The notes below the pieces were generated by a model. The model was given only the letters and a program-made list of their open reading frames with translations, made no database searches and had not been told where the DNA came from. Positions 20,733 through 33,588 of a stretch of 55,865 nt of DNA are shown piece after piece; within the stretch, counting starts at the first letter, position 1, and each line of letters starts with the position of its first letter. Origin of the DNA: Lachnoclostridium sp. An196. GTDB taxonomy: Bacteria; Bacillota; Clostridia; Lachnospirales; Lachnospiraceae. The stretch is taken from positions 1 through 55,865 of the forward strand of contig NZ_NFJZ01000016.1 of assembly GCF_002160135.1 (NCBI RefSeq), given 5' to 3'. A program made the position numbers and the translations under genes.

Positions 20733-20921
20733 TTGGAAGAATATCAGAGATGTTCCTGTACCAGAGGAATGAACAGGGAAAATAATTTTCCGCCGGCAAT
20801 GGCATATGTGCCCTGGCAGCACTGGCACAGAGTATACGATCTGGATAAAGCGCTCGCCTGCGGTACGATCTTCCCGGAACTGGATAAACCGTTTCTGGGT
20901 GTGAGGGGAGGGTGCAGGTAA
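20733..20921 (+). CDS. cotJA: Spore coat-associated protein CotJA
   Basis: A 62-residue protein with the CotJA core AMAYVPWQHW and CGTIFPELDKPFLG. It starts at a TTG with AAAGGA about 9 bases upstream; no in-frame ATG would keep the conserved part. In Bacillus, CotJA, CotJB and CotJC are made together in the mother cell and assembled in the coat. The stop touches the start of cotJB at 20921. Confidence 0.9.
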   Translation: MEEYQRCSCTRGMNRENNFPPAMAYVPWQHWHRVYDLDKALACGTIFPELDKPFLGVRGGCR

Positions 20922-21190
20922 TGGCACAGAGACAGCCTACCAGGAAACAAATGCTGTCCTGGATCAATATGGTCAGCTTCGCGGTGGTGGAAGCCAATCT
21001 GTACCTGGACACCCATCCCGCAGATCCAACAGCGCTCGCTTATTTCCGCGAATACAGCCAGCTTCGGAGACAGGCGCTGGACGACTATGCGGCGATCTAC
21101 GGACCGTTGACCTTGGACACCGCTCCCGCAGGGCAGGAGCAGTGGGAATGGATTAACCAGCCCTGGCCCTGGGAAGGAGGCGCGTGCTAG
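20921..21190 (+). CDS. cotJB: Spore coat protein CotJB
   Basis: An 89-residue protein matching CotJB: LSWINMVSFAVVEANLYLDT, then a helix with YFREYSQLRRQAL and a Trp-rich end WEWINQPWPWEGGAC. The start at 20921 follows GGGAGGG; the frame also contains an ATG at 20912. Its TAG is immediately followed by the ATG of cotJC at 21191, showing that the operon was originally cotJA-cotJB-cotJC. Confidence 0.92.
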   Translation: MAQRQPTRKQMLSWINMVSFAVVEANLYLDTHPADPTALAYFREYSQLRRQALDDYAAIYGPLTLDTAPAGQEQWEWINQPWPWEGGAC

Positions 21191-21307
21191 ATGTGGAATT
21201 ATGAAAAAAGACTGGAGTATCCGATTAATATTACCAAGGCAAATCCTAAGATGGCACGGCTGATCATCTCCCAGTTCGGAGGTCCCGACTGCAAAAAGAT
21301 AGAGTGA
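21191..21307 (+). pseudogene. cotJC: cotJC, 5' part (interrupted by the intervening element)
   Basis: Codons 1-33 encode the N-terminus of CotJC, a Mn-catalase-like coat protein (MWNYEKRLEYPINITKANPK, then ISQFGGPD). After the core GGAGGTCCCGA at 21278-21288 the frame leaves cotJC (CKKIE) and stops at 21307. The rest of the gene continues in the same frame and orientation from 31857. Joining at the core gives ISQFGGPDGELGASMRYLSQ, the normal family sequence, and a 203-codon protein. It is scored as interrupted rather than dead, because precise excision would restore it. Confidence 0.93.
21262..21302. repeat. attL of the cotJC intervening element
   Basis: The core GGAGGTCCCGA is at 21278-21288, with the central dinucleotide GG at 21281-21282. 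Left of the centre is cotJC sequence (attB half). Right of it is the element half, TCCCGACTGC followed by AAAAAGATAG. The matching attR is at 31840. Confidence 0.88.
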
Positions 21308-22454
21308 TGGTATTGTCCGGACGCCGGAAAACGATCTGAGACAAAAATGAGCGGAGAAGCTCGTTTTTTTCATTTTCAGAGATTTTGTCGGAGCGCAGAA
21401 TAGGAAGAGAGCGCTTTAACCGGGCAGGACATGCGGGGGCTGTTTCCAGCTGTTCCAGGACTTTGTCGTTAAGCCAGGCAAGGGACACCGAGTGGCTGAC
21501 AGAGCACTGCCCCCTGGCATAGCGGCAGCATTGCAGATATTTGCCTCTGACGGACTGGGTGAGTGTGGCACCGCAATTTCCGCACCGTACCAGGCCGCGG
21601 AGCATGAAATCGGCAGGGGATTGGCGCGCGTGAGGCGGAAGACAGCGCCGTCTGGAAGCAAGTGTCTGCTGGACAGACAGAAAAACCTCTTCACATATCA
21701 GAGGAATATGTTCTCCTGCTGTCAGGGTCATCTCCTGCTGTCCGGGATGCATCCGTCTGCGCAGTTTGCCGGTATAGGTCGGATTGGAGAGAATATAGTC
21801 GACAGTGCGGCTTTGAAATGGCTTGCCCCGGTTAGTGCGTATGCCTGCGGCGTTGAGTGCAGCGGCAATCTGCCGGGAGGATTTGCCGGCCAGATAATCC
21901 TGGAAAATTTGGGGGATCAGAGAGGCTTTTTCAGGATCCGGGACAAAGTGGCCGTCTCCCATGCGATAGCCGAAAGGAGGGACAGAGACGACGCCTCCAC
22001 GGGAGAACTTTTCATTCATACCTCTCCGGACTTCTTCCGCCAGATTGAGGCTGTAGTATTCGTCCATAGCTTCCAGCAGAGCTTCAATGAGTATAGAGGT
22101 GGGATCTTTGGAGAGCTGTTCGGTGATGGAGATCACTTCAATGCCGCATTCTTTGCGCAGCATGGACTTGTACAGGATGCTGTCCTGGCGGTTCCTGGCG
22201 AAACGGGAGAATTTCCATAACAAGATCACATCGAAAGGACGGGGTTTTTCTTTTGCGTCAGAAATCATGCGCATGAAGGCGGGACGCGTCCGCGCATGCC
22301 GGCCGCTGATTCCTTCGTCCAGATAGATGTATTTTTCCGGGAGAAGAATCTGATGAGCGTCTGCGTAATCCCGAATCCTGCCAAGCTGGCTGTCGGGTGA
22401 ATATTCTGTCTGTTCCTCTGTAGATACACGGATATAAGCTGCGCCTGTCTGCAT
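21264..22454 (-). CDS. Serine recombinase of the cotJC intervening element
   Basis: A 396-residue recombinase. The catalytic domain begins AAYIRVSTEEQTEYSPDSQL (nucleophile Ser in RVST) and continues LDEGISGRHARTRP and LLWKFSRFARNRQD. A recombinase domain (PPFGYRMGDG ... RTVDYILSNPTYTGKLRR) and a zinc ribbon (CGNCGATLTQ ... CCRYARGQC) follow. The C-terminal coiled coil of large serine integrases appears short, and the whole protein is shorter than SpoIVCA-like enzymes. Its last codons cross the left attachment core into cotJC antisense, ending RDLRTGR; in an excised circle they would read RDLPTAKR. It is adjacent to, and reads towards, attL, as in skin elements. The gene is divergent from trkA. 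Confidence 0.93.
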   Translation of the reverse strand: MQTGAAYIRVSTEEQTEYSPDSQLGRIRDYADAHQILLPEKYIYLDEGISGRHARTRPAFMRMISDAKEKPRPFDVILLWKFSRFARNRQDSILYKSMLRKECGIEVISITEQLSKDPTSILIEALLEAMDEYYSLNLAEEVRRGMNEKFSRGGVVSVPPFGYRMGDGHFVPDPEKASLIPQIFQDYLAGKSSRQIAAALNAAGIRTNRGKPFQSRTVDYILSNPTYTGKLRRRMHPGQQEMTLTAGEHIPLICEEVFLSVQQTLASRRRCLPPHARQSPADFMLRGLVRCGNCGATLTQSVRGKYLQCCRYARGQCSVSHSVSLAWLNDKVLEQLETAPACPARLKRSLPILRSDKISENEKNELLRSFLSQIVFRRPDNTITLSFCSRDLRTGR

Positions 22455-22557
22455 AATCCTTTAACTGCCGCCGGAGCGGCTGTTCCGGTTTTATGTCTAA
22501 TATATGGGGCAAGGGACGGCTATTTGCAAAGAGGATGTTAAGATCCTGTTCATTTTG

Positions 22558-22586
22558 TTGCGGTTTTCGACAGGTGGTGCTATATT
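22558..22586 (+). promoter_or_regulatory. Probable trkA promoter
   Basis: TTGCGG (22558-22563), a 17-base spacer and TATATT (22581-22586) lie about 70 bases before the trkA start. The -35 is weak. The direct repeats at 22589-22637 lie just downstream. Confidence 0.5.
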
Positions 22587-22588
22587 GG

Positions 22589-22637
22589 ATTAAGATTTCG
22601 TAAAGACAGAAAAAAAACAATTAAGATTTTGTCAAGA
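22589..22637 (+). repeat. Tandem direct repeat upstream of trkA
   Basis: ATTAAGATTTCGTAAAGA (22589-22606) and ATTAAGATTTTGTCAAGA (22620-22637) differ at two positions and are spaced 31 bp, about three helix turns. Each unit contains two AAGA half-sites 11 bp apart, the style of OmpR-family response-regulator sites. Placed after the predicted -10, they may act as an operator. Confidence 0.5.
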
Positions 22638-22658
22638 ATTCGGGAGGATAGAGAAAGC

Positions 22659-24047
22659 ATGAACATTATCATAGCCGGATGCGGGAAAGTAGGTTCCACA
22701 TTGGCGGAACAGCTTAGCAGGGAAGGGCATGACATTACGGTGATCGACCAGAAGACAGACGTAGTCCGGCACATGGCGGATGAAGCGGATGTACGCGGGG
22801 TCGTCGGCAACGGAGCCAGTTATAATATTCAGAAAGAAGCAGGAATTGATGAAGCGGATCTGCTGATCGCAGTGACCAATGCGGATGAAGTCAATCTGCT
22901 CTGCTGCCTGATCGCGAAAAAAGCAGGAGGATGCAAGACGATAGCCAGAGTGCGGAATCCTGTATATCATCAGGAAATCGGTCATATAAAGGGAGAACTG
23001 GGATTGTCGATGGTGATTAATCCGGAGTTCGCGGCAGCTTCGGAGATTGCCCGGCTGCTGCGTTTTCCTTCGGCCATCGAGATCAATACGTTTGCCAGAG
23101 GAAGGATCGAGCTGCTGCGCTTCCGGGTGGAGAAATCCAGCCCGCTTGCCGGCAGAAAACTGAAAGATATTTCGGAGCTGACCCAATGCGAGGCGCTGGT
23201 CTGCATCGTAGAGAGGGGAGGAAAGGTTATAATCCCGGATGGAGAAATGGAACTCCAGGCGAATGACACGATTTCTATTGTGGCTTCTCCTTTGAACGCA
23301 AGCCGTTTTTTCAAATTGATGGGTGTACAGACCAATCAGGTGAAAAACACCATGATCATCGGAGGCAGCAAGACGGCATATTATCTGGCGCGCAGGCTTC
23401 TCGCCATGAAGATCAAAGTGAAGATTATTGAAAAGGATATGAGGCATTGTGAAGAACTCTGCGAACTGCTTCCGCAGGCCATGATCATCCAGGGCGACGG
23501 TACGGATCAGGGGCTTCTGGAGGAAGAGGGACTGCGCGACGCGGAAGGGTTTGTAGCGCTGACAGATATGGACGAGGAGAATATTATGCTTTCTCTGTAC
23601 GCCAAGAGTATGAGTCATGCAAAGAAGATCACAAAAGTGAATCATGATACTTATGACACGATCATAGACACGCTGGATATCGGCAGCCTGATCCACCCTA
23701 AGCATATTACAGCAGAGAGTATTCTCCAGTATGTGCGCGCCATGCAGAATTCCATCGGAAGCAATGTGGAGACACTGTACCGTCTGGCGGACGGCAGGGC
23801 AGAAGCGCTGGAATTCATTATTAAGGAAAGCGGAGATGTCACAGGCATACCTTTGCAGGAACTGGAACTGAAGTCGCATCTGCTGATCTGTGCCATCAAC
23901 CGGAAGGGAAAGACGATCCTCCCCAGAGGACAGGACACTTTGATGGCAGGGGATTCCGTAGTCGTGATCACGACCAGATGCGGAGAGCTGAAAGATATCA
24001 AGGACGTATTGAAAAAGCAGGAGACTGCTTCTTTGTACAGCAGATAA
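22659..24047 (+). CDS. trkA: Trk potassium transporter regulatory subunit TrkA
   Basis: A 462-residue cytoplasmic subunit that binds NAD(H) and gates the TrkH channel. It has two RCK units in tandem: the first Rossmann site is MNIIIAGCGKVGSTLAEQLS, the second KNTMIIGGSKTAYYLARRLL near residue 227. Each is followed by a TrkA-C domain (GMVIN... regions ending near 220 and 455). The start at 22659 is set by GGGAGG at 22642-22647; the frame opens earlier, at 22629. trkH follows after 16 bases. The pair lies inside the cotJC element, an unusual location for potassium uptake genes. Confidence 0.93.
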   Translation: MNIIIAGCGKVGSTLAEQLSREGHDITVIDQKTDVVRHMADEADVRGVVGNGASYNIQKEAGIDEADLLIAVTNADEVNLLCCLIAKKAGGCKTIARVRNPVYHQEIGHIKGELGLSMVINPEFAAASEIARLLRFPSAIEINTFARGRIELLRFRVEKSSPLAGRKLKDISELTQCEALVCIVERGGKVIIPDGEMELQANDTISIVASPLNASRFFKLMGVQTNQVKNTMIIGGSKTAYYLARRLLAMKIKVKIIEKDMRHCEELCELLPQAMIIQGDGTDQGLLEEEGLRDAEGFVALTDMDEENIMLSLYAKSMSHAKKITKVNHDTYDTIIDTLDIGSLIHPKHITAESILQYVRAMQNSIGSNVETLYRLADGRAEALEFIIKESGDVTGIPLQELELKSHLLICAINRKGKTILPRGQDTLMAGDSVVVITTRCGELKDIKDVLKKQETASLYSR

Positions 24048-24063
24048 GGACGGGAAAACAGTT

Positions 24064-25509
24064 ATGAATTTGAAAATGATGCGTTATATTGTCGGCGCCC
24101 TGGTGCAGATAGAGGCGGCTTTATTTTTGATCCCCATATTGACGGCGGTTGTCTATCAGGAATGGGGATGTCTGCAGGTATTTGGGGCAACGGCGCTGTT
24201 TTGTCTGGCGGCAGGCCGGCTGGTGAGAGGAAAACGGCCGGAGGACGCCACGATCTTCTCTTCGGAAGGTTATACGACAGTAGCTTTGTGCTGGATCGTC
24301 ATGAGTATTGTCGGAGCGATTCCCCTGTGTGTGAGCGGCGCTTATCCGAATCCCTTTGATGCGCTCTTTGAGATCGTGTCCGGCTTCACGACCACAGGCG
24401 CGACGGTGGCCACGGATGTGGAAGCGCTGCCCCGTTCTATTCTGATGTGGAGAAGTTTCTCCCACTGGATCGGCGGTATGGGGGTGCTGGTTTTTATGCT
24501 GGCGATTCTTCCTATGGGAGCGTCCGGTATGTATCTGATGAAGGCTGAAAGCCCGGGGCCGTCCGTGGGCAAACTGGTTCCGAGGGTAAGGAGTACGGCG
24601 AAGATTTTGTATGTAATCTATCTTTTTCTGACTGTGCTCCAGATGATTCTTATGATTCTGTTCGGATGCCCGGTATTCGACTCGATTAATCTTACGTTTG
24701 CCACCGCCGGCACCGGAGGTTTTTCCGTGCTCAACAGCGGATGCGCGGATTATAATACGGCAGTTCAGATTATTCTGACGGTTTTCATGATTCTTTTTGG
24801 TGTGAATTTCAACGAGTATTTCCTGATTTATTGTAAAAAATGGAAAGAAGCGGTGCATTGCGAGGAAGTCCGCGCTTACCTGGGCATTATAGCGGCGGCG
24901 GTGATCATGATCTCGTTTAATATCTGCCATATATTTGGAAATATAGGCGAGACGGTGCTTCACGCGGCCTTTCAGGTGGCGTCCATCATCACGACTACCG
25001 GTTTCGCCAGCGTGGACTTTGACCTTTGGCCGGAATTTTCCAGGGAGATCCTGCTGCTTCTGATGTTTATCGGCGCGTGCGCGGGCAGCACGGGAGGCGG
25101 CATCAAGGTATCAAGGATTGTGATTATGGCAAAGTCTGTGCTGAAAGAACTGGCTTATATCCTTCATCCCCGGAATGTGCGAAAAGTCCGTTTCGAGGGC
25201 AAAATAGTGGAACATGAGACGATGAGATCCGTTAATGTGTTTATGGTAGCTTATCTGATCATTTTCGTGACTTCTGTCCTGTTGGTATCGCTGGACAATT
25301 TCGACGGCATAACGAATTTCTCGGCAGTGGCTTCCGCATTCAATAATGTGGGACCGGGACTGAATCAGGTGGGACCCGTCCGGAATTTTTCCATCTATTC
25401 CAATCTGTCCAAGCTGGTGCTCACGTTTGATATGCTGGCAGGAAGACTGGAAATCTTTCCCATGCTGATTCTGCTTCTGAAGATCCGCGGAAGGAAGAGA
25501 TGGAACTGA
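24064..25509 (+). CDS. trkH: Trk potassium transporter membrane subunit TrkH
   Basis: A 481-residue polytopic membrane protein with the four pore repeats of the Trk/Ktr/HKT superfamily. Selectivity-filter-like segments are GFTTTGATVA, TAGTGGFSVL, TTTGFASVDF and FNNVGPGLN. The first half starts LKMMRYIVGALVQIEAALFLIP. It forms the potassium pore that the upstream TrkA regulates. No terminator is obvious after it; the next region is the adhE control region. Confidence 0.94.
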   Translation: MNLKMMRYIVGALVQIEAALFLIPILTAVVYQEWGCLQVFGATALFCLAAGRLVRGKRPEDATIFSSEGYTTVALCWIVMSIVGAIPLCVSGAYPNPFDALFEIVSGFTTTGATVATDVEALPRSILMWRSFSHWIGGMGVLVFMLAILPMGASGMYLMKAESPGPSVGKLVPRVRSTAKILYVIYLFLTVLQMILMILFGCPVFDSINLTFATAGTGGFSVLNSGCADYNTAVQIILTVFMILFGVNFNEYFLIYCKKWKEAVHCEEVRAYLGIIAAAVIMISFNICHIFGNIGETVLHAAFQVASIITTTGFASVDFDLWPEFSREILLLLMFIGACAGSTGGGIKVSRIVIMAKSVLKELAYILHPRNVRKVRFEGKIVEHETMRSVNVFMVAYLIIFVTSVLLVSLDNFDGITNFSAVASAFNNVGPGLNQVGPVRNFSIYSNLSKLVLTFDMLAGRLEIFPMLILLLKIRGRKRWN

Positions 25510-25564
25510 TCCGGGAGAAATTTCTGTGTGGGCATGCTCAGATATTGATTTTCTGAAAACTTTC

Positions 25565-25582
25565 TTGTTAATAATTTAATTA
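25565..25582. promoter_or_regulatory. Candidate Rex (NADH-sensing repressor) site
   Basis: TTGTTAA, TAAT and TTAATTA resemble the clostridial Rex consensus TTGTTAAnnnnTTAACAA, with a full left half and 5 of 7 on the right. It lies upstream of adhE, a classic Rex target in Clostridia, and just before the putative promoter. Confidence 0.6.
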
Positions 25583-25594
25583 TCGGAAAATCTC

Positions 25595-25623
25595 TTTTCA
25601 ACAACATAAAGACATGGTAGAAT
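25595..25623 (+). promoter_or_regulatory. Probable adhE promoter
   Basis: TTTTCA (25595-25600), a 17-base spacer and TAGAAT (25618-25623). The -10 is good and the -35 poor, which fits a regulated promoter next to the Rex-like site. Confidence 0.45.
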
Positions 25624-25630
25624 GAAGCAA

Positions 25631-25695
25631 AGAATACGGAGGAGAAGGACATTCGCCTCCGTATTCTCGTATAGAAATCATATGCATCGCATATG
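25631..25695 (+). other. Two structured hairpins in the adhE leader
   Basis: AGAATACGGAGG (25631-25642) pairs perfectly with CCTCCGTATTCT (25656-25667), and the loop can pair further. A second perfect repeat, CATATGC-ATC-GCATATG, spans 25679-25695. Neither is followed by a T run, so they are not ordinary terminators. The real ribosome site AAAGGAGG is downstream. They suggest post-transcriptional control or mRNA stability. Confidence 0.55.
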
Positions 25696-25724
25696 TCTTT
25701 AAACCATTATAAAGGAGGTAATTT

Positions 25725-28343
25725 ATGGCAAGAAAGGAAGAGAGCAGGGCAGAGGAGCCCATGAGCGCGGTGGAACTGCTTCAGCAGAAGATCGAGGCCA
25801 TGAAAGAAGCACAGAAGGTGTTTGCCACCTTCACTCAGGAGCAGGTAGACAGGATCTTTTTCGAGGCGGCGATGGCAGCCAACAAACAGCGTATTCCGCT
25901 GGCAAAGATGGCGTGCGAGGAGACCGGTATGGGCGTAGTCGAAGACAAGGTGATCAAGAATCATTACGCGGCAGAGTATATGTACAACTCCTATAAAAAT
26001 GTGAAGACCTGCGGCGTGATCGAGGAAGACACTTCCTACGGCATCAAAAAGATCGCGGAACCCATGGGACTGGTTGGAGCGGTGATCCCGACCACGAATC
26101 CTACTTCCACGGCGATCTTCAAATGCCTGATCTGCCTGAAGACCAGGAACGCGATCCTGATCAGCCCCCATCCTCGCGCAAAGAAATGTACGATCGAAGC
26201 GGCAAAGGTTGTACTGGACGCCGCGGTGAAAGCCGGAGCGCCGGAAGGCGTTATCGGATGGATCGAGGAGCCTACGCTGGAGCTTTCCAATATGCTGATG
26301 AAGTCGGCGGATGTGATCCTCGCCACAGGAGGTCCCGGCATGGTCAAGGCGGCATATTCTTCGGGAAAACCCGCCATCGGCGTGGGTCCGGGCAATACGC
26401 CGGTTATCATGGACAGCAGCTGCGATATCCAGACGGCTGTGTATTCCGTGATTCATTCCAAGACATTTGACAATGGCATGATCTGTGCGTCTGAGCAGTC
26501 TGTGACCGCCCTGGCGGACATTTACGATGAGGTCAAGGCAGAGTTTGTGAAGCGCGGCTGTCATGTGCTCAGTCCGGAGGAGCTGGATAAGATGCGCAAA
26601 ATACTTCTGACGGAAGCAGGCACGGTAAACGCGAAGATCGTAGGACAGAAAGCGGCCACGATCGCGGAGCTGGCAGGCTTCCAGGTGCCGCCGGAGACAA
26701 AGATTCTGATCGGCGAGGTGACGTCGGTGGATATCTCCGAGCCGTTCGCTCATGAGAAACTTTCTCCGGTACTGGCACTTTATAAAGCGCCTGATTTTGA
26801 GACGGCGCTGGATATGTCCGAGCAGCTGATCGCGGACGGAGGATACGGACATACTTCGTCGCTCTATATCCATCCGTCCCAGACCGGGAAGATGGCAATG
26901 CATGCGGCGCGCATGAAGACCTGCCGTATTCTGGTAAATACACCTTCGTCCCACGGCGGAATCGGAGATCTGTACAATTTCAAGCTGCCCCCGTCGCTGA
27001 CTCTGGGCTGCGGTTCCTATGGCGGCAATTCGATCTCCGAGAACGTAAATGTGAAGCATCTGATCAATATCAAGACCGTTGCCGAAAGGAGAGAAAATAT
27101 GCTCTGGTTCAAGACCCCGCCGAAGGTTTATTTCAAAAAGGGCTGCCTTCCGGTGGCGCTGGACGAGCTGAAAACATACTACAACAAAAAGAAAGCGTTT
27201 ATCGTGACGGACGGTTTCCTGTTCGGCAGCGGTATGACGAAGCCGATCACGGACAAGCTGGACGAGATGGGCATTACATATGCGTGTTTCCATGAGGTCG
27301 CTCCGGATCCGACCCTGCAGACGGCACAGAAGGGCGTGGAGCAGCTCCGAGCCTTCGAGCCGGATGTGATCATCGCCCTGGGCGGCGGTTCCGCCATGGA
27401 CGCTGGCAAGATCATGTGGCTCATGTATGAGCATCCGGAATGCAGGTTCGAAGATCTGGCCATGGATTTCATGGATATCCGCAAGAGAGTCTATGTATTC
27501 CCGAAGATGGGCGAGAAGGCCATGTTTGTGGCGGTGCCCACTTCCTCCGGTACCGGTTCCGAGGTGACGCCGTTCGCGATCATCACCGATGCGGAGACTG
27601 GAACCAAGTGGCCTATCGCGGATTATGAGCTGCTTCCGAATATGGCGATTATTGATACAGATTTCATGATGACGCAGCCGAAGGGCCTGACCAGCGCCTC
27701 CGGTATCGACGCGCTGACCCATGCGCTGGAGGCGTATGTGTCGATCATGGCGACGGACTTCACCGACGGACTGGCACTGATGGCGACGAAAAATATCTTT
27801 ACCTATCTGCCGCGCGCATACGAGAAGGGCGCGGGCGATCCGATCGCCAGAGAGAAGATGGCCAATGCGTCCACGATGGCAGGTATGGCGTTTGCCAACG
27901 CGTTCCTGGGCGTCTGCCATTCCATGGCGCACAAACTGGGCGCTTACCATCATCTGCCCCACGGAGTGGCAAACGCGCTGCTGATCGAACTGGTGATGCG
28001 CTACAACGCGGGTCCGGCTCCGGTAAAGATGGGTACGTTCTCCCAGTATCCGTATCCGCACGCGAAGGAGAGATACTGCGAAGTGGCGAGATTCGTCGGT
28101 ATTCCGGGCAAAGACGATGATGAAGTATTTGAAAACTTTATCAAGGCGATAGCGGAACTGAAAGAGAAGGTCGGCATCAAGAGAACGATCAAAGATTACG
28201 GCGTCAAGGAAGAAGATTTCCTGGCAACGCTGGATGAGATGGTGGAGAACGCTTTCAATGACCAGTGTACCGGCGCCAACCCAAGATATCCGCTGATGTC
28301 CGAGATCAAAGAGATCTATCTGAAAGCATATTACGAGGGATAA
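25725..28343 (+). CDS. adhE: Bifunctional acetaldehyde-CoA/alcohol dehydrogenase
   Basis: An 872-residue two-domain enzyme that reduces acetyl-CoA to acetaldehyde and then ethanol with two NADH. The N-terminal aldehyde dehydrogenase has TFDNGMICASEQS with the catalytic Cys. The C-terminal iron alcohol dehydrogenase has ALGGGSAMDAGK, PTSSGTGSEVTPF and metal-ligand histidines in GIDALTHALEAY and CHSMAHKLGAYHHLPHG. Such enzymes assemble into spirosomes. The ribosome site AAAGGAGG is optimal. It lies in the middle of the cotJC element, with its own control region and terminator, so it is not part of the trk transcript by necessity. Confidence 0.97.
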   Translation: MARKEESRAEEPMSAVELLQQKIEAMKEAQKVFATFTQEQVDRIFFEAAMAANKQRIPLAKMACEETGMGVVEDKVIKNHYAAEYMYNSYKNVKTCGVIEEDTSYGIKKIAEPMGLVGAVIPTTNPTSTAIFKCLICLKTRNAILISPHPRAKKCTIEAAKVVLDAAVKAGAPEGVIGWIEEPTLELSNMLMKSADVILATGGPGMVKAAYSSGKPAIGVGPGNTPVIMDSSCDIQTAVYSVIHSKTFDNGMICASEQSVTALADIYDEVKAEFVKRGCHVLSPEELDKMRKILLTEAGTVNAKIVGQKAATIAELAGFQVPPETKILIGEVTSVDISEPFAHEKLSPVLALYKAPDFETALDMSEQLIADGGYGHTSSLYIHPSQTGKMAMHAARMKTCRILVNTPSSHGGIGDLYNFKLPPSLTLGCGSYGGNSISENVNVKHLINIKTVAERRENMLWFKTPPKVYFKKGCLPVALDELKTYYNKKKAFIVTDGFLFGSGMTKPITDKLDEMGITYACFHEVAPDPTLQTAQKGVEQLRAFEPDVIIALGGGSAMDAGKIMWLMYEHPECRFEDLAMDFMDIRKRVYVFPKMGEKAMFVAVPTSSGTGSEVTPFAIITDAETGTKWPIADYELLPNMAIIDTDFMMTQPKGLTSASGIDALTHALEAYVSIMATDFTDGLALMATKNIFTYLPRAYEKGAGDPIAREKMANASTMAGMAFANAFLGVCHSMAHKLGAYHHLPHGVANALLIELVMRYNAGPAPVKMGTFSQYPYPHAKERYCEVARFVGIPGKDDDEVFENFIKAIAELKEKVGIKRTIKDYGVKEEDFLATLDEMVENAFNDQCTGANPRYPLMSEIKEIYLKAYYEG

Positions 28344-28363
28344 CGTCCTTTCTGTAAAAGACT

Positions 28364-28404
28364 GCGGCGCGCAGGCGGGTACCGTCTGCGGCGCCGCATT
28401 TTTG
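28364..28404 (+). terminator. Intrinsic terminator after adhE
   Basis: A GC-rich hairpin running from GCGGCGC at 28364 to GCGCCGC at 28397 around a short GTA-containing loop, followed by ATTTTTG. Confidence 0.85.
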
Positions 28405-28473
28405 TGTGCCCGGCGGGATCATGGAGGCAGGAGTCTGTCCGGAAACTGGTGTCAGATGCCGGGGATTCTTAAA

Positions 28474-28502
28474 TTGACAGAAGCTGCCGCGTATAGTATA
28501 CT
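28474..28502 (+). promoter_or_regulatory. Sigma-A promoter with overlapping operator-like repeat
   Basis: TTGACA (28474-28479), a 17-base spacer and TATACT (28497-28502) make a strong promoter. AGTATACTAACTGTACT, an imperfect palindrome, overlaps the -10 (28496-28512) and is well placed for autorepression by the GntR protein encoded next. Confidence 0.75.
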
Positions 28503-28545
28503 AACTGTACTAGGACGATTAATACAGTAGAACGGAGGAATAGAT

Positions 28546-28917
28546 ATGATCCTCATAGATTATTCGGACCGGAGGCCGATCTATGAGCAGGTGACGGAAA
28601 AGATCGCGGAGCTGATCATCCGGGGCGTACTGCCGCCGGAGAGCCAGCTGCCTTCCGTGCGCAGTCTGGCCATGGATCTGTCTATCAATCCCAACACGAT
28701 CCAGAGAGCGTATCAGGAACTGGAACGGAAGGGTTACACCTATTCGGTCCCGGGAAAGGGGAGCTTTGTCTCGCAGAAGACAGAATATCTGGAAGAGCAG
28801 AGGGAGAATATCCTGGAAGAACAGCGGAGGCTTGCAGAAAAGGCCATGTGTCTGGGGATGGATCCGCGGCTTCTGAAAGAAGTGATCGATCAGTGTGAAG
28901 GAGGGGAGAAGGCATGA
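28546..28917 (+). CDS. GntR-family (YtrA-type) transcriptional repressor
   Basis: A 123-residue regulator with an N-terminal winged helix (RRPIYEQVTEKIAELIIRG, PSVRSLAMDLSINPNTIQRA, KGYTYSVPGKGSFVS) and only a short helical tail, the YtrA subclass. YtrA proteins typically repress a linked ABC transporter; here the ATPase gene overlaps its stop codon by 4 bases and the permease follows. The predicted operator overlaps its own promoter. The inducing signal cannot be inferred, though YtrA-type systems often respond to cell-wall-active compounds. Confidence 0.9.
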   Translation: MILIDYSDRRPIYEQVTEKIAELIIRGVLPPESQLPSVRSLAMDLSINPNTIQRAYQELERKGYTYSVPGKGSFVSQKTEYLEEQRENILEEQRRLAEKAMCLGMDPRLLKEVIDQCEGGEKA

Positions 28918-29816
28918 TTGAGACGACCGGGCTGGCCAAATCTTTCGGAGAGATTCTGGCAGTCAACCACATCACCACAAAGATCCGGGACGGGGCAGTC
29001 TTCGGCCTGGTGGGGACGAATGGAGCCGGAAAGAGCACGTTTCTTCGGCTTTTGTCGGGGGTGCTGCGCCCGGATGAAGGGACGGTCCTTGTGGACGGGG
29101 AGCCGGTGTACGAGAGGCCGCGGACGAAGAGCCGCATGTTCTATATATCGGATGAACAGTATTTTCTCCCGGGTGCCACGCCGCTGGAGACGGCGTCCCA
29201 CTACCAGCTGTTCTATCCGGATTTTCAGATGGAACGCTGCCGGAAGCTGTTTGAGAGCTTCGGGCTGGATGAAAAGAGAAAGACCGGCACCTTTTCCAAA
29301 GGGATGAAGAAACAGGTGTCCATCATCTGCGGGATCTGCTCCGGGGCTTCCTACCTTCTGTGCGACGAGGCGTTCGACGGTCTGGATCCGGTCATGCGCC
29401 AGGCGACAAAAAGCCTTTTCGCGGGCGAGATGGAAGAGCGGAATTTTACCCCGGTCATCGCTTCCCATAATCTTCGGGAACTGGAAGATATCTGTGAGGA
29501 TGTGGGACTTCTCCATGCGGGCGGCATTCTGCTGTCCGGCGAACTGGAAAACATGAAACTGAATATACACAAAGTGCAGTTTGTGCTGAAAGAAGAGGTC
29601 CCGACACAGGAACTTTTTGCGCCGCTGGAAATCCTTGCCGATGACCGCAGAGGGATGCTTCACACGGTGACGCTGAGGGGAGACCGTGAGACGGCGGAGG
29701 CGAAGATCCGCGCCGCGGAGCCGGTGTTTTATGAACTCCTGCCCCTGTCTTTGGAGGAGATCTTTATCAGTGAAACGGAGGTGGCGGGATATGACGTCCG
29801 GAAAATTATTTGTTAG
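28914..29816 (+). CDS. ABC transporter ATP-binding protein
   Basis: A 300-residue ATPase with Walker A GTNGAGKSTF (near residue 38), a variant signature FSKGMKKQVSIICGI in place of LSGGQ, and Walker B YLLCDEAFDGLD. The His of the H loop is in IASHNLRELE. The variant signature is common in YtrB/BcrA-like exporters. The ATPase starts inside the last codon of the GntR gene, and its 3' end overlaps the permease gene by 26 bases, so the three genes are translationally coupled. Substrate unknown. Confidence 0.92.
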   Translation: MIETTGLAKSFGEILAVNHITTKIRDGAVFGLVGTNGAGKSTFLRLLSGVLRPDEGTVLVDGEPVYERPRTKSRMFYISDEQYFLPGATPLETASHYQLFYPDFQMERCRKLFESFGLDEKRKTGTFSKGMKKQVSIICGICSGASYLLCDEAFDGLDPVMRQATKSLFAGEMEERNFTPVIASHNLRELEDICEDVGLLHAGGILLSGELENMKLNIHKVQFVLKEEVPTQELFAPLEILADDRRGMLHTVTLRGDRETAEAKIRAAEPVFYELLPLSLEEIFISETEVAGYDVRKIIC

Positions 29817-31836
29817 GATTCTGAAGACAGACTTTAAGCAGCGGGCGTGGAGTCTTCTGCTGGGACTTATCGTATTTTTTCTGTGCCTGCCTGCCGCATA
29901 CCTGCTGATGCTGGGAAGCCAGATAGGAACAGACCCGATCCGCGCCATGAGAACGGCGGAGGAGTTGTTACGCTCGAGTGGATCGCTGATGCTGCCTTTT
30001 GTTACGGTGGCGGCGGCATGTATCTGCGCGCCGGGAGGATTTGCCTATCTGCATAAAAGATCAGGTACGGACTATTATCACAGTCTGCCGGTTCGGAGAG
30101 AAACCCTGTTCGCCGCCAAATATGTGAACGGTATCCTGATCTATCTGCTTTCTTTCGGGATCAATCTGCTGCTTACGCTTCTGCTGGCCGCTGCCGGTGG
30201 CGGCGTGACCGGAGAGGTGCTGCGGGGCGCCGCGTGCATGTTTGCCGGTCATATGACGGCATATCTGATGCTGTATTCCATCGCGCTTGCGGCCACGTTC
30301 CTGACGGGGAATCTGCCGGTCAATATCCTGATGATCGGTTTCTTCTACTTATATGGTATTTTTGTACGGTTTCTGAGGGTATGCCTGATGGACTCCTTCC
30401 TGCGCACCTACGTGCATAGTTCATGGCTGGAAGATACGGGAACGATTCTGTCGCCGCTGTGCTTTTATACCGGTCTGACTGTATATGGAGAAGGATGGCC
30501 TGTGCATGTACTGACCGGTCTTCTGGTCGCCGCCGGGTTCAGCGCGCTCGCGCTGCTTTTGTACCGGGTACGTCCGTCGGAGGCTTCGGACCGGGCGCTG
30601 GCGTTTCCCTGGATGCGGCTGCCGTTCAAGTTTCTGGTGTGCGTCCCGGCGGGCCTGATGGGAGGCTGGTTCTTCTATTCCATGAGGATGAGCATGGGAT
30701 GGTACCTCTTTGGAACCGTGGTGCTCTGGCTGATCTCCAGTGTCTTTATGGAGATGGTGACGGCGCTTTCCTTTCGGCAGGGGTTTGCCCACTGGAAGAG
30801 TTCTGCCCTGTGTCTGGCAGTTTCCGGATTTGTACTGCTGGTATTCGTGCAGGACCTGACGGGATATGATGCTTATCTGCCCCGGAAAGATTCTCTGGCA
30901 CATATGGCGGTAAACGTAAGCATGCTGGACACAGAGCAGGACGCCTACAGCTGGGGAGAGGACGGGCTTCCGTATTATGAATCCATAAACTCTTACCGGA
31001 TGAACCATATGCGTCTGACGGATCTGGACGCGGCATATGATCTGGCGGCAGAGAGCATTCAGACTCTGGAGGCGGACGACAATGAGCAGCAGATGGATGG
31101 GAGTTGGATAACGGTTTGTTTTTCCACTAAAAGCGGGCGAAAAATCTATCGGCAGTATCCGCAATGCAATGAAGAACAGGTACGCCTTTTGGCCCAGGTG
31201 TATGATTCGGAAGAATACAAGGAGGGCAGTTTCTCCATATTGACGGACGAAGAACATCTGGAATACTACAAAGGAATCCATTACCGGGATTTCCTGGGGC
31301 AGGAATACGAACAGACACTGTCCGCCCAGGATATGGAAAGAGTCTATGAAGCGTTCACCGCAGACCTCAGGGACGCGTCTCTGGCCGACAGTTTTACGCA
31401 GGAGATCGGGACCTTAAGTTTCCGGATCGAGAGAGATTCCTGGTATGGCGACTATGACAGCACGCTGGGGTCTTATCCTGTGTATGCGGACTATGAACGT
31501 ACGCTGGCAGCTCTCGATGACTTGGGAATACAGACGGTGTGTGATCCGTCGACAGTGATAACAGTGGACGTGGACGATTATGACGACGAGTACAGCGGAC
31601 AGGTAACGACATACACCTATACAGATCCGGAAGAGATCCGCCAGATCTTTCCCTGCCTGAGAAGCAGGCGGGCAGACTGGTATTATGATACGGACTCGCT
31701 CTATGTCTACGGGGTCAGGGCAAGGGTGACACTTGCGGGGGCGCAGAATGAGTACGATTATCAAAACTATGATCTTGCCCTTTCGGAACTCCCGGATTTT
31801 CTCCGGGAGGATCTGGGGCTGGATCAGGCGCCGTAA
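29791..31836 (+). CDS. ABC transporter permease with large extracytoplasmic domain
   Basis: A 681-residue membrane protein. Residues ~1-370 hold about nine hydrophobic segments (WSLLLGLIVFFLCLPAAYLL; YLLSFGINLLLTLLLAAAGG; FLVCVPAGLMGGWFFYS). After a last helix near residue 355, the C-terminal ~320 residues are polar, Tyr/Asp-rich and probably outside the cell. The start at 29791 is chosen for GGAGGTGGCGGG and the MTSGKLFVRIL start; the frame is open back to 29686 within the ATPase gene. It stops only 20 bases before the right attachment core, making it the last gene of the element. Confidence 0.82.
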   Translation: MTSGKLFVRILKTDFKQRAWSLLLGLIVFFLCLPAAYLLMLGSQIGTDPIRAMRTAEELLRSSGSLMLPFVTVAAACICAPGGFAYLHKRSGTDYYHSLPVRRETLFAAKYVNGILIYLLSFGINLLLTLLLAAAGGGVTGEVLRGAACMFAGHMTAYLMLYSIALAATFLTGNLPVNILMIGFFYLYGIFVRFLRVCLMDSFLRTYVHSSWLEDTGTILSPLCFYTGLTVYGEGWPVHVLTGLLVAAGFSALALLLYRVRPSEASDRALAFPWMRLPFKFLVCVPAGLMGGWFFYSMRMSMGWYLFGTVVLWLISSVFMEMVTALSFRQGFAHWKSSALCLAVSGFVLLVFVQDLTGYDAYLPRKDSLAHMAVNVSMLDTEQDAYSWGEDGLPYYESINSYRMNHMRLTDLDAAYDLAAESIQTLEADDNEQQMDGSWITVCFSTKSGRKIYRQYPQCNEEQVRLLAQVYDSEEYKEGSFSILTDEEHLEYYKGIHYRDFLGQEYEQTLSAQDMERVYEAFTADLRDASLADSFTQEIGTLSFRIERDSWYGDYDSTLGSYPVYADYERTLAALDDLGIQTVCDPSTVITVDVDDYDDEYSGQVTTYTYTDPEEIRQIFPCLRSRRADWYYDTDSLYVYGVRARVTLAGAQNEYDYQNYDLALSELPDFLREDLGLDQAP

Positions 31837-31839
31837 ATC

Positions 31840-31880
31840 CTATCTTTTCGCAGTCGGGAGGTCCCGATGGGGAGCTGGGC
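31840..31880. repeat. attR of the cotJC intervening element
   Basis: The core GGAGGTCCCGA is at 31857-31867, with the central GG at 31860-31861. To the left is the element half: read on the minus strand it begins TCCCGACTGC then GAAAAGATAG, nearly identical to the element half of attL. To the right is cotJC coding sequence. Confidence 0.88.
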
Positions 31881-32381
31881 GCCAGCATGCGTTATTTGTC
31901 CCAGCGGTTCGCCATGCCGTATAAGGAGTGCATGGCGGTGCTGACCGACATAGGTACTGAAGAACTGGCGCACCTGGAAATGGTCTGTACCATCGTCCAT
32001 CAGCTGACACGGGGGATGAGCATGGAAGAACTGAAAGAATCCGGTATTGACGCCTACTATGTGGATCATACCGCCGGTATCTGGCCCCAGGCTGCGTCGG
32101 GGGAGCCGTTCTCCTCGTCTACGTTCCAGTCTACGGGAGATCCGATCACCGACCTCACGGAAGACCTCGCTGCGGAACAGAAAGCTCGGACGACATACGA
32201 CAACCTGATCCGTCTGGTGAAAGATCCGGAGGTCCTGGATCCGCTGCGGTTCCTGCGGGCGCGGGAGATCGTGCATTTCCAGAGATTCGGTGAAGCCCTG
32301 AGACTGGTGCAGGATAAACTGGATTCCAGAAATTTCTATATCATGAACCCGGCGTTCGATACGGGTACCACAAAATCATAA
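31857..32381 (+). pseudogene. cotJC: cotJC, 3' part (separated from its start by the element)
   Basis: From the core onward the frame encodes the rest of a CotJC Mn-catalase-like coat protein: GELGASMRYLSQRFAMPYKE, LTDIGTEELAHLEMV with metal-ligand Glu and His, DLAAEQKARTTYDNL, and RFLRAREIVHFQRF. It ends naturally at 32381 and is followed by a terminator. It has no start of its own with a ribosome site; the first Met is at 31887. It continues the frame of 21191-21288 exactly. Family length and sequence are normal after joining, so the gene appears preserved and restorable. Confidence 0.93.
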
Positions 32382-32594: not shown

Positions 32595-33203
32595 ATGGCG
32601 CTTGAGAATAAATTAGGACTCACAAGTTCAGCGGATCTTGCCCGTGAGGAAGAGCGTATCAGCAAGAAAAAGGCTGCGGAACTCTTTGGAGACGGTGTGC
32701 TTGATAAGCTGGAACCCGGGAAATTTTCCTCGCTCCAGGCCATACACAAATACCTTTTTGAGGAGATTTACGACTTTGCCGGAAAAATCAGAACGGTAAA
32801 TCTCGCGAAGGGTAATTTCCGTTTTGCGCCTTTAATGTATCTTGAAACAGCACTTGGAAATATTGATAAGATGCCGCAGTCCACATTTGATGAAATTGTT
32901 GAGAAATATGTAGAAATGAATATTGCCCATCCATTTCGGGAGGGAAACGGGCGAAGCATGCGTATCTGGCTGGATCTGATGTTTAAAGCTGAGCTTTATA
33001 AGGTCGTTGACTGGAGCAAGGTTGATAAAGAAGATTACCTGCTCGCCATGGAACGCAGCCCGATTAAGGACATCGAAATAAAATATCTGTTAAAGAATGC
33101 CCTGACGGATGATATTAACAGCCGCGAGGTTTATATGAAAGGCATCGACCACAGCTATTATTACGAAGGTTATACGACGTTTAAGACGGAGGAATTGTTG
33201 TGA
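32595..33203 (+). CDS. Fic-domain protein (putative AMPylating toxin-like enzyme)
   Basis: A 202-residue protein with the full Fic motif HPFREGNGRSMR (near residue 115) and the upstream flap region GNFRFAPLMYLE. Fic enzymes transfer AMP or other nucleotide groups to target proteins. The catalytic His and the anion-binding loop are intact, so it could be active. I see no clear inhibitory helix (S/T-x-x-x-E-G/N) at either end and no VbhA-like antitoxin gene. GGAGGTG precedes the ATG. The next frame overlaps its stop. It lies between cotJC's end and a damaged duplicate of that end, in an apparent inserted island. Confidence 0.88.
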   Translation: MALENKLGLTSSADLAREEERISKKKAAELFGDGVLDKLEPGKFSSLQAIHKYLFEEIYDFAGKIRTVNLAKGNFRFAPLMYLETALGNIDKMPQSTFDEIVEKYVEMNIAHPFREGNGRSMRIWLDLMFKAELYKVVDWSKVDKEDYLLAMERSPIKDIEIKYLLKNALTDDINSREVYMKGIDHSYYYEGYTTFKTEELL

Positions 33204-33469
33204 ATTTAACAGAAATGTCTTCTGACGGAAAAGTGGCATATTTGATAAAGCCGATACTAAAAGTGCTGCAGGAAGCAGGTGGCCAGCTGGAACGTTCGGA
33301 AATCAAAGAGCGAATTGCCGATTTGGATGATCAAATAGCGGAATTTTCTGAAATAGTTAAAATCTCAAAGAAAACAGGCAAGACATATAAAGAGTTCAAT
33401 TTTAAGTTTAATTTTGCTATTAAAGATTTGCTCTTTAATAAATGGTCTGTACCATTGTCCATCAGCTGA
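33200..33469 (+). pseudogene. Truncated Mrr-N-like winged-helix gene
   Basis: It starts at a GTG overlapping the fic stop. About 80 codons (MSSDGKVAYLIKPILKVLQE, LERSEIKERIADLD, FNFKFNFAIKDLLF) resemble the N-terminal winged-helix domain found in Mrr-type restriction proteins. At 33440 the sequence switches into a copy of the cotJC 3' region, giving a foreign tail and a stop at 33469. The rest of the protein is missing. It may have been an antitoxin-like or restriction partner of the Fic gene, but that is only positional inference. Confidence 0.6.
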
Positions 33470-33588
33470 CACGGGGGACGAGTATGGAAGAACTGAAAGA
33501 CCCCGGTGTTCGATACGGGCACCACAAAATCATAAAAGACAAAACGCTGCTCCATCTGCCGGGTACGGGAGAGGAGCAGCGTTTTTAG
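33440..33588 (+). repeat. Internally deleted duplicate of the cotJC 3' end and terminator
   Basis: 33440-33500 matches 31978-32038 with few changes (TGGTCTGTACCA, CATCAGCTGACACGGGGGA, ATGGAAGAACTGAAAGA). It then jumps to a copy of 32349-32431 (GTTCGATACGGG, ACCACAAAATCATAAAAGA, and the hairpin). About 300 bp of the original are absent. The retained terminator now lies at the end of nnrE. The two copies bracket the Fic/Mrr-N segment. Confidence 0.9.
33541..33586. terminator. Terminator copy shared with nnrE
   Basis: AAAACGCTGCTCC pairs with GGAGCAGCGTTTT, as at 32386. The minus-strand nnrE stop codon lies at its edge, so the hairpin can end transcription from both sides. Confidence 0.8.

Follow-up and report, generated by a model that had tools for sequence, protein, structure and literature searches.

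The spore-coat gene cotJC is split at four sites in Lachnospiraceae by recombinase-encoding elements whose removal would restore it

The window analyzed here is a stretch of 55,865 nucleotides from Lachnoclostridium sp. An196 (contig NZ_NFJZ01000016.1; G000:C8 in our collection), whose genome (G000) is a 3.25-Mb draft in 30 contigs. It carries the operon cotJA-cotJB-cotJC in this order, with cotJC being interrupted by an element of 10.58 kb. The operon starts with an open reading frame (ORF) of 62 amino acids (20733–20921, + strand) that adjoins cotJB and cotJC in the relatives compared and which we take to be cotJA. It is followed by cotJB (20912–21190, +; Pfam CotJB PF12652, E 2.9e-29), by a 5' piece of cotJC with codons 1–33 (21191–21288, +) and, beyond the element, by a 3' piece with codons 30–203 and the stop (31857–32381, +), which is under strong purifying selection. 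A preliminary description made from the letters alone had placed both pieces at these positions on a single strand, which was confirmed by direct reading and by alignment to the undivided cotJC that another genome of the genus (G010) carries. CotJC is a manganese-catalase-like spore-coat protein of the cotJABC operon. The interrupted gene is a mother-cell sporulation gene, as are the targets of developmentally excised intervening elements, and a table in PMC3416734 lists cotJC under regulon E as a component of the inner spore coat.

The 11-bp sequence GGAGGTCCCGA occurs twice in the window, at 21278 and 31857 with a spacing of 10,579 bp, and its reverse complement does not occur in these 55.9 kb. 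From repeat and symmetry analysis we assign the two copies as the cores of the predicted attachment sites attL (21278–21288, +, with the symmetry centred on GG) and attR (31857–31867, +). Joining the two pieces at this repeat, as recomputed from the sequence, gives an in-frame gene of 203 codons and a stop, the product of which aligns without gaps to the uninterrupted CotJC of G010 (82% identity over 199 amino acids); such a short direct repeat restoring the reading frame is also found in sporulation intervening elements. At the predicted circle junction 19 of the first 20 positions pair on each side of the GG (21/29 in all), a symmetry missing around the centres of attL (13/29), attR (13/29) and attB (14/29). 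Random sequence reaches at least 12/20 in about 1% and at least 15/20 in no more than 0.005% of cases, rates which are somewhat understated as each junction value is the best of several registers and centres and the chance estimate is for one. Serine-integrase attP sites are described as generally symmetric around the crossover dinucleotide in the relevant part of PMC5595907, and the predicted circle junction of the window resembles them. Repeat, in-frame join and circle symmetry thus uphold the proposal of the preliminary description that removal of the element would restore CotJC. Apart from a 27-codon fragment with stops, no further CotJC match was found in the genome at E ≤ 0.001.

Just inside the left end, where a serine recombinase gene had already been proposed, lies the gene for the recombinase P0002 (396 amino acids, 21264–22454, − strand), which shows the Pfam domains Resolvase, Recombinase and Zn_ribbon_recom, the set of large serine integrases. 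Its AlphaFold model (mean predicted local distance difference test score 71.9, predicted template modelling score 0.37) matched the SPbeta, Bxb1, phiC31 and LI integrases in Foldseek with the SPbeta integrase 9dxh being the best hit. According to Pfam and predicted fold the element therefore encodes its own site-specific recombinase, as sporulation intervening elements do. The last codons of the recombinase ORF cross the left repeat into cotJC (21264–21290), and on the circle its C-terminus would change only from LRTGR to LPTAKR, so that the ORF would stay open after excision. The remaining genes assigned inside the element by Pfam are trkA (22629–24047, +; TrkA_N/TrkA_C), trkH (24064–25509, +; TrkH), the bifunctional aldehyde/alcohol dehydrogenase gene adhE (25725–28343, +), a GntR-family regulator (28546–28917, +), an ABC transporter ATPase (28914–29816, +) and an ABC-2 type permease ORF (29686–31836, +; ABC2_membrane_5 and DUF6449) whose true start is probably further in. 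No phage structural or replication genes were found among the seven proteins of the window element scanned with Pfam. Immediately 3' of cotJC a Fic-domain gene and an Mrr_N-like ORF below the Pfam cut-off are located (32595–33469).

Among 17 genomes of the genus cotJC was found in 15 and is split in 14 of them. The splits are located at four fixed sites, A (codon ~31), B (~65), C (~135) and D (~174). G001 carries four collinear cotJC pieces on one contig, separated by elements of 4.3 kb (A), 6.4 kb (C) and 9.4 kb (D), and three pieces on one contig each are present in G005, G009 and G016 (sites A and C) as well as in G003 and G012 (A and B). The pieces are distributed over two contigs in G014 (three pieces; A and B), G008 (four; A, B and C) and G007 (four seen, codons ~67–132 not found), while G000, G013 and G011 have two pieces each and the gene is cut by contig ends in G004 and G006. 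Cores that join in frame were identified at 24 junctions, and the circle symmetry is at least 12/20 in 20 of them. The arms of the attachment sites vary between species (the G000 and G001 types, for instance) with the symmetry being kept, which means that two distant half-sites changed together.

The search of related genomes for an uninterrupted cotJC returned one, in G010, where the order is cotJA-cotJB-intact cotJC-trkA-trkH-adhE (G010:C49, L130) and no recombinase match was found at E ≤ 1e-30 in a genome that is 80% complete. This order without a recombinase first suggested that the element might have engulfed its neighbours trkA-trkH-adhE. In the cotJABC tree G010 falls within the genus as part of a weakly supported group (49) with G012, G016, G011 and G003, and the split G004 branches first, with support labels that may have shifted on rerooting. 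One gene is shared 3' of the last cotJC piece by the window, G013, G014, G012, G009 and G001; it was not found in the stretches of G003, G011 and G016, and the 13 kb that follow cotJC in G010 lack it. The intact gene of G010 may reflect the original gene order or a later rejoining.

All 14 site-A elements of the genus contain ORF clusters of trkA and trkH, with trkH sitting between two cotJC pieces, and a match to a recombinase related to P0002. The adhE gene is also inside seven of the 14, three of which additionally carry the GntR and ABC genes, and in the minimal site-A elements trkA, trkH and the recombinase gene are accompanied only by short ORFs without assignment, among which no structure-based search for a recombination directionality factor (RDF) was made. 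In the window genome trkH (E ≤ 1e-30) and adhE (E ≤ 1e-200) are the sole matches, and at these thresholds a single TrkH match is present in each of the 15 genus genomes having any and a single adhE match in each of ten, the copy of G004 being a contig-end fragment elsewhere. As the only trkH and adhE are located inside the element, the element must stay in the germ line. Only a cell that leaves no descendants could afford to lose them, which favours excision in the mother cell over switching in vegetative cells. Four further named relatives were identified via the recombinase, two uncultured Lachnoclostridium, one Robinsoniella (Lachnospiraceae) and one uncultured Clostridium, all of them metagenome-assembled genomes (MAGs). 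In the Robinsoniella MAG an ORF between the recombinase and the cotJC 5' piece, presumably thiC, lies inside the element, and cotJC, split at site A, has a second break near codon 180 next to a further recombinase (site D; L128 2619–12984).

The split gene is under strong purifying selection. Whole-gene ratios of nonsynonymous to synonymous substitution rates (dN/dS, Nei-Gojobori) are 0.012–0.108 in ten pairs of split genomes with dS of up to 1.5; the pairs cover 11 of the 14 split genomes of the genus (G004, G006 and G012 are unpaired), several dS values are large or not computable and the G001/G007 pair comprises 130 codons. For single pieces, including a 5' piece of 30 codons and a 3' piece of 26 codons, the ratio never exceeds 0.19 in the 12 pairs where it could be computed, and codons 1–30 of the window gene show 0.03 against G013 and 0.01 against G014. 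For comparison, cotJB gives 0.07–0.10 in two pairs. The recombinases are conserved as well (site A 0.08–0.19 in six pairs, C 0.10–0.17 in two, D 0.15 in one; two saturated pairs were discarded), with 0.12–0.13 for P0002 against G013 and G014. Both halves of cotJC look undamaged, as the preliminary description had noted, and decayed halves in relatives, which it had named as evidence to the contrary, were looked for and not found in these pairs. Purifying selection on the pieces implies that restoring the gene brings a benefit, and continued selection on the interrupted gene is again a property of sporulation intervening elements. The window also contains the remains of a second cotJC 3' copy (33442–33536, +), identified by CotJC search and alignment downstream of the Fic gene, in which codons ~71–93 are followed by remnants of the last codons in another frame. 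Most codons and the frame of this redundant copy are lost, and a longer relic in G013 (L068 2281–2442) starts near site B. Probably an earlier duplication or a site-B event left this copy behind. In the window, unneeded cotJC DNA decays whereas the split gene does not.

In a maximum-likelihood tree of 53 recombinases there is a single group for each of the sites A (25), C (8) and D (3), with an ultrafast bootstrap of 100, and two groups for site B (17). The site labels change three times on the tree, which is the minimum, as against a mean of 23.8 after shuffling, so the recombinase lineage goes with the insertion site. Related enzymes are found in phages. The integrase of PQ006094.1, a circular 32-kb phage from woodrat faeces, is 57.5% identical to P0002 over residues 1–337 and keeps the coiled coil typical of these enzymes. 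About 50 bp past its stop an attP-like sequence (L163 5482–5522) matches the circle junction of the window in 31 of 41 columns including GGGAGGT, with an alignment score of 30 compared to 28 for the best of 200 shuffles; the 3' end of the window recombinase abuts its attachment site in the same way. This suggests that existing phages may target site A of cotJC. For site B, the integrase of Roseburia phage Jekyll (LR596902.1; L157, L158) is 49% identical to the recombinase of G063, and its record ends, joined with one copy of the terminal repeat left out, are symmetric around GA (18/24) with a GAATTGG core that would correspond to the E-E-L-A codons of cotJC. Phage integrases and att-like sequences together indicate that the elements at sites A and B most likely descend from phages whose attB lay in cotJC, and the site-A element has most likely been domesticated in this genus.

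The same arrangement is found in many other genomes of the family. In a survey of 250 Lachnospiraceae genomes, one per genus, cotJC matches were obtained in at least 151, and re-searching the 58 that looked incomplete revealed both sides of at least one split in 45; as the other 93 were not re-examined, 45 of 151 is a lower bound. Sites A, B, C and D are used in 20, 21, 5 and 3 of the 45 genomes (the left boundary was set by hand for G165, G166 and G177, where alignments ran past the junction), and apparently two elements are present in G127, G210, G075 and, weakly, in G113, whose site-D piece is a weak match (E 0.0018). No other full cotJC copy was found in 40 of the 45. In 23 genomes the two pieces of a split share a contig, always on the same strand (23/23), and circle symmetry reaches at least 12/20 at 15 of 20 measured junctions. 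Forty stretches were taken from 27 of these genomes and from G228 and G148. In these 29 genomes a serine recombinase ORF is at most 200 bp away from a cotJC piece in 23 cases and at most 1 kb away in 26; the distance is 2.0 kb for G173 and 5.4 kb for G259, and the stretches of G148 showed none. G076:C68 contains codons 58–198 of cotJC twice on the same strand at a distance of ~3.5 kb, and a different contig holds the 5' piece. As a control the classic target sigK was run through the same search. Among the matches listed (147 of the 250 genomes) most best matches span the whole protein, and 11 of 22 re-searched genomes with no or a doubtful strong match carry a sigK divided near codon 112, showing that the method finds splits of the known kind; in six of the 11 (G046, G049, G188, G210, G238 and G263) cotJC is split, too. 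In this family cotJC seems to be split more often than sigK, a rough comparison given that the sigK count is less complete, the 22 being only some of the genomes without a strong match. Of the 17 genus genomes, 16 show a best sigK-like match in one piece (residues 24 to 215–226 of 227), that of G012 with a stop; none of the genus matches passes the model's curated cut-off, and the model also gives matches in 10 of 14 control genomes.

The coiled coil makes serine integrases refuse attL × attR without an RDF. According to the alignment this insert of the zinc domain is absent from P0002 and kept in the site-A recombinase of G003, and it is absent in 10 and kept in 16 of 26 assessable site-A recombinases (G008 and G171, with stops, and G001, truncated at the stretch end, were left out; G011 and G165 were read from the alignment as the motif pattern failed there). 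Three changes are most parsimonious for the presence of the coil, with a bootstrap range of 2–4 changes, and a single loss may also account for the pattern. For the LI integrase without its coil, both attL × attR and attB × attP are described as possible with low efficiency in the section of PMC10754689 concerned. The missing coil of P0002 and this behaviour of LI lead us to propose an RDF-free excision. A sigma-E-like promoter candidate, AAATAG-N13-CATATATT (22499–22525, −), has a −10 element that begins 52 nt before the recombinase start, the match to the consensus being uncalibrated; a CATATA(T/C)T motif upstream of the start is common to G000, G013 and G014, and another footprint just 5' of the start is common to five G001-type genomes. 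This promoter evidence is suggestive only. A second serine recombinase of the genome (G000:C30:107265–108770, L160), beside a gene that we take to be smpB, seems to belong to an ordinary mobile element near tmRNA.

In its tested features the cotJC element agrees with known sporulation intervening elements, and it differs from them in the gene it interrupts, in how many elements share that gene, in its cargo and in its recombinase. Like skin in sigK of B. subtilis and C. difficile, it combines a serine recombinase, a short repeat and a mother-cell gene that would be restored by excision; unlike skin it lies in another gene, has no phage genes, lacks the coil of its recombinase and is one of several elements per gene. 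The skin of C. difficile requires the RDF CD1234, as stated in the part of PMC5025042 on this factor. SPbeta in spsM of B. subtilis, whose excision is sporulation-specific, is a phage that shares the serine integrase, and differs, as far as the cited excerpts go, in being an active prophage in another gene (PMC4191935) with SprB as directionality factor (PMC10747680). The gin element in gerE of B. cereus ATCC10987 is similar in having no phage genes and a symmetric attachment site, yet its recombinase GirC needs GirX (PMC5595907, in the part on gin), it is a single element in another gene, and trapped housekeeping genes are not among the features described there. The elements vfbin (spoVFB), vrin (spoVR) and yin (yabG) also interrupt sporulation genes and, in the descriptions at hand, are prophage-like or carry phage-related genes, with one element in each of these other genes. 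Phages meet cotJC relatives elsewhere too, as the attR of prophage phi027 in C. difficile R20291 lies directly upstream of the cotJC homologue CDR20291_1465, cotG (PMC11222575, PMC12122855); these excerpts describe it as adjoining the gene, with no mention of splitting and restoring. No description of a split and restored cotJC was found in a literature search that was thin on subscription papers and preprints, the position of phi027 next to a cotJC homologue being the nearest case. In an unrelated lineage and type of development, heterocyst elements share gene interruption and excision in a differentiated cell, since they reportedly interrupt nitrogen-fixation genes of cyanobacteria and are excised in that cell type. 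There, several elements occur in one gene.

Taken together we suggest, with a probability of roughly 80%, that a domesticated phage-derived element keeps cotJC in pieces and is excised precisely, most likely in the terminal mother cell. A temperate phage would have used codon ~31 of cotJC as attB and given rise to the 10.58-kb element. Its large serine recombinase would recombine attL and attR at the central GG, releasing a circle with a symmetric attP and restoring the 203 codons. Since the germ line needs the element, its excision most likely takes place, like that of skin, in the sporulating mother cell alone. With loss of the coil the recombinase may have become an excision enzyme needing no RDF, and the timing could then be set by its own transcription. 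The comparison with skin made in the preliminary description is supported by attP symmetry, recurrence, the match between recombinase and site, and purifying selection.

Several observations weigh against this model. The cotJC searches returned no joined copy of any split gene. Four of the 24 genus junctions and five of the 20 measured in the family are below 12/20, with two and five further junctions, respectively, showing no core. The relatives are draft genomes and the four named ones MAGs, and the recombinases of G008 (site A) and G171 contain a stop. Regarding phage descent, the best phage matches of the site-C and site-D recombinases are only 46% and 31% identical, and the collection viral_contigs contained neither relatives of P0002 nor a match to the attP 21-mer. 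Matches to the sigma-E-like consensus upstream of the recombinases are scattered and uncalibrated. Deletion of the coil abolishes the activity of phiC31 integrase (PMC10754689, in the same section) and leaves LI weakly active, which makes the RDF independence of P0002 uncertain. A second full-length cotJC is present in two of the 14 split genus genomes (G014, 68% identity; G003, 61%) and in five of the 45 of the family. As far as the passages on this point in PMC12122855 and PMC11222575 show, mutants of the cotJ family in B. subtilis have no apparent defect and those of two C. difficile homologues no significant coat defect, so by analogy CotJC may matter little.

The best surviving alternative, that cotJC is a dispensable chance attB of ordinary prophage-type insertions which leave by rare induction, could draw on these mutants and additional copies, on phage integrases of 49–57% identity, and on site-B elements of a phage-like size of ~39–42 kb in G063, G154, G243 and G239. 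We consider it improbable, as such a gene would not be expected to keep low dN/dS down to its smallest pieces at dS of up to 1.5 while a redundant copy beside it decays, nor would a site-A element, without phage genes in the window copy according to Pfam, be present in 14 of 15 genomes of a genus. That growing cells switch cotJC on and off reversibly by excision and reintegration (phase variation), for which a coil-less recombinase acting in both directions like LI (PMC10754689, same section) might be suited, is quite unlikely, since excised cells would risk losing their sole trkH and adhE and in none of the genomes searched did a joined copy stand beside a split one. Least likely is that cotJC is a pseudogene or that its 3' part is translated alone from the ATG at 31887, which does open an ORF of 164 codons, as codons 1–30 are as conserved as the rest and in-frame cores and attP symmetry persist while the arms differ between species.

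In summary, the excision of a domesticated element from cotJC in the mother cell remains our preferred explanation. As a bolder and more tentative idea, to which we give somewhat less than even odds, cotJC of Lachnospiraceae might be regarded as a gene with introns at the DNA level, having four sites with their own integrase lineages, an RDF-free enzyme at site A, and the sole trkH and adhE being discarded by the mother cell. With so many sites occupied in one gene of 200 codons, the mother cell would have to perform up to three or four excisions. In the sporulation cases described so far, as far as the excerpts cited here go, one element interrupts one gene, whereas here a small coat gene is hit at four sites across a family, in a series running from phage-sized insertions to a trimmed excision system owned by the host. 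Automatic annotation may overlook cotJC in these bacteria or label it as a pseudogene. With this knowledge, it becomes testable how loss of its coiled coil makes a developmental switch of a phage integrase, why phages so often target genes of the mother cell, and which consequences arise when single-copy housekeeping genes reside in DNA that the mother cell discards.

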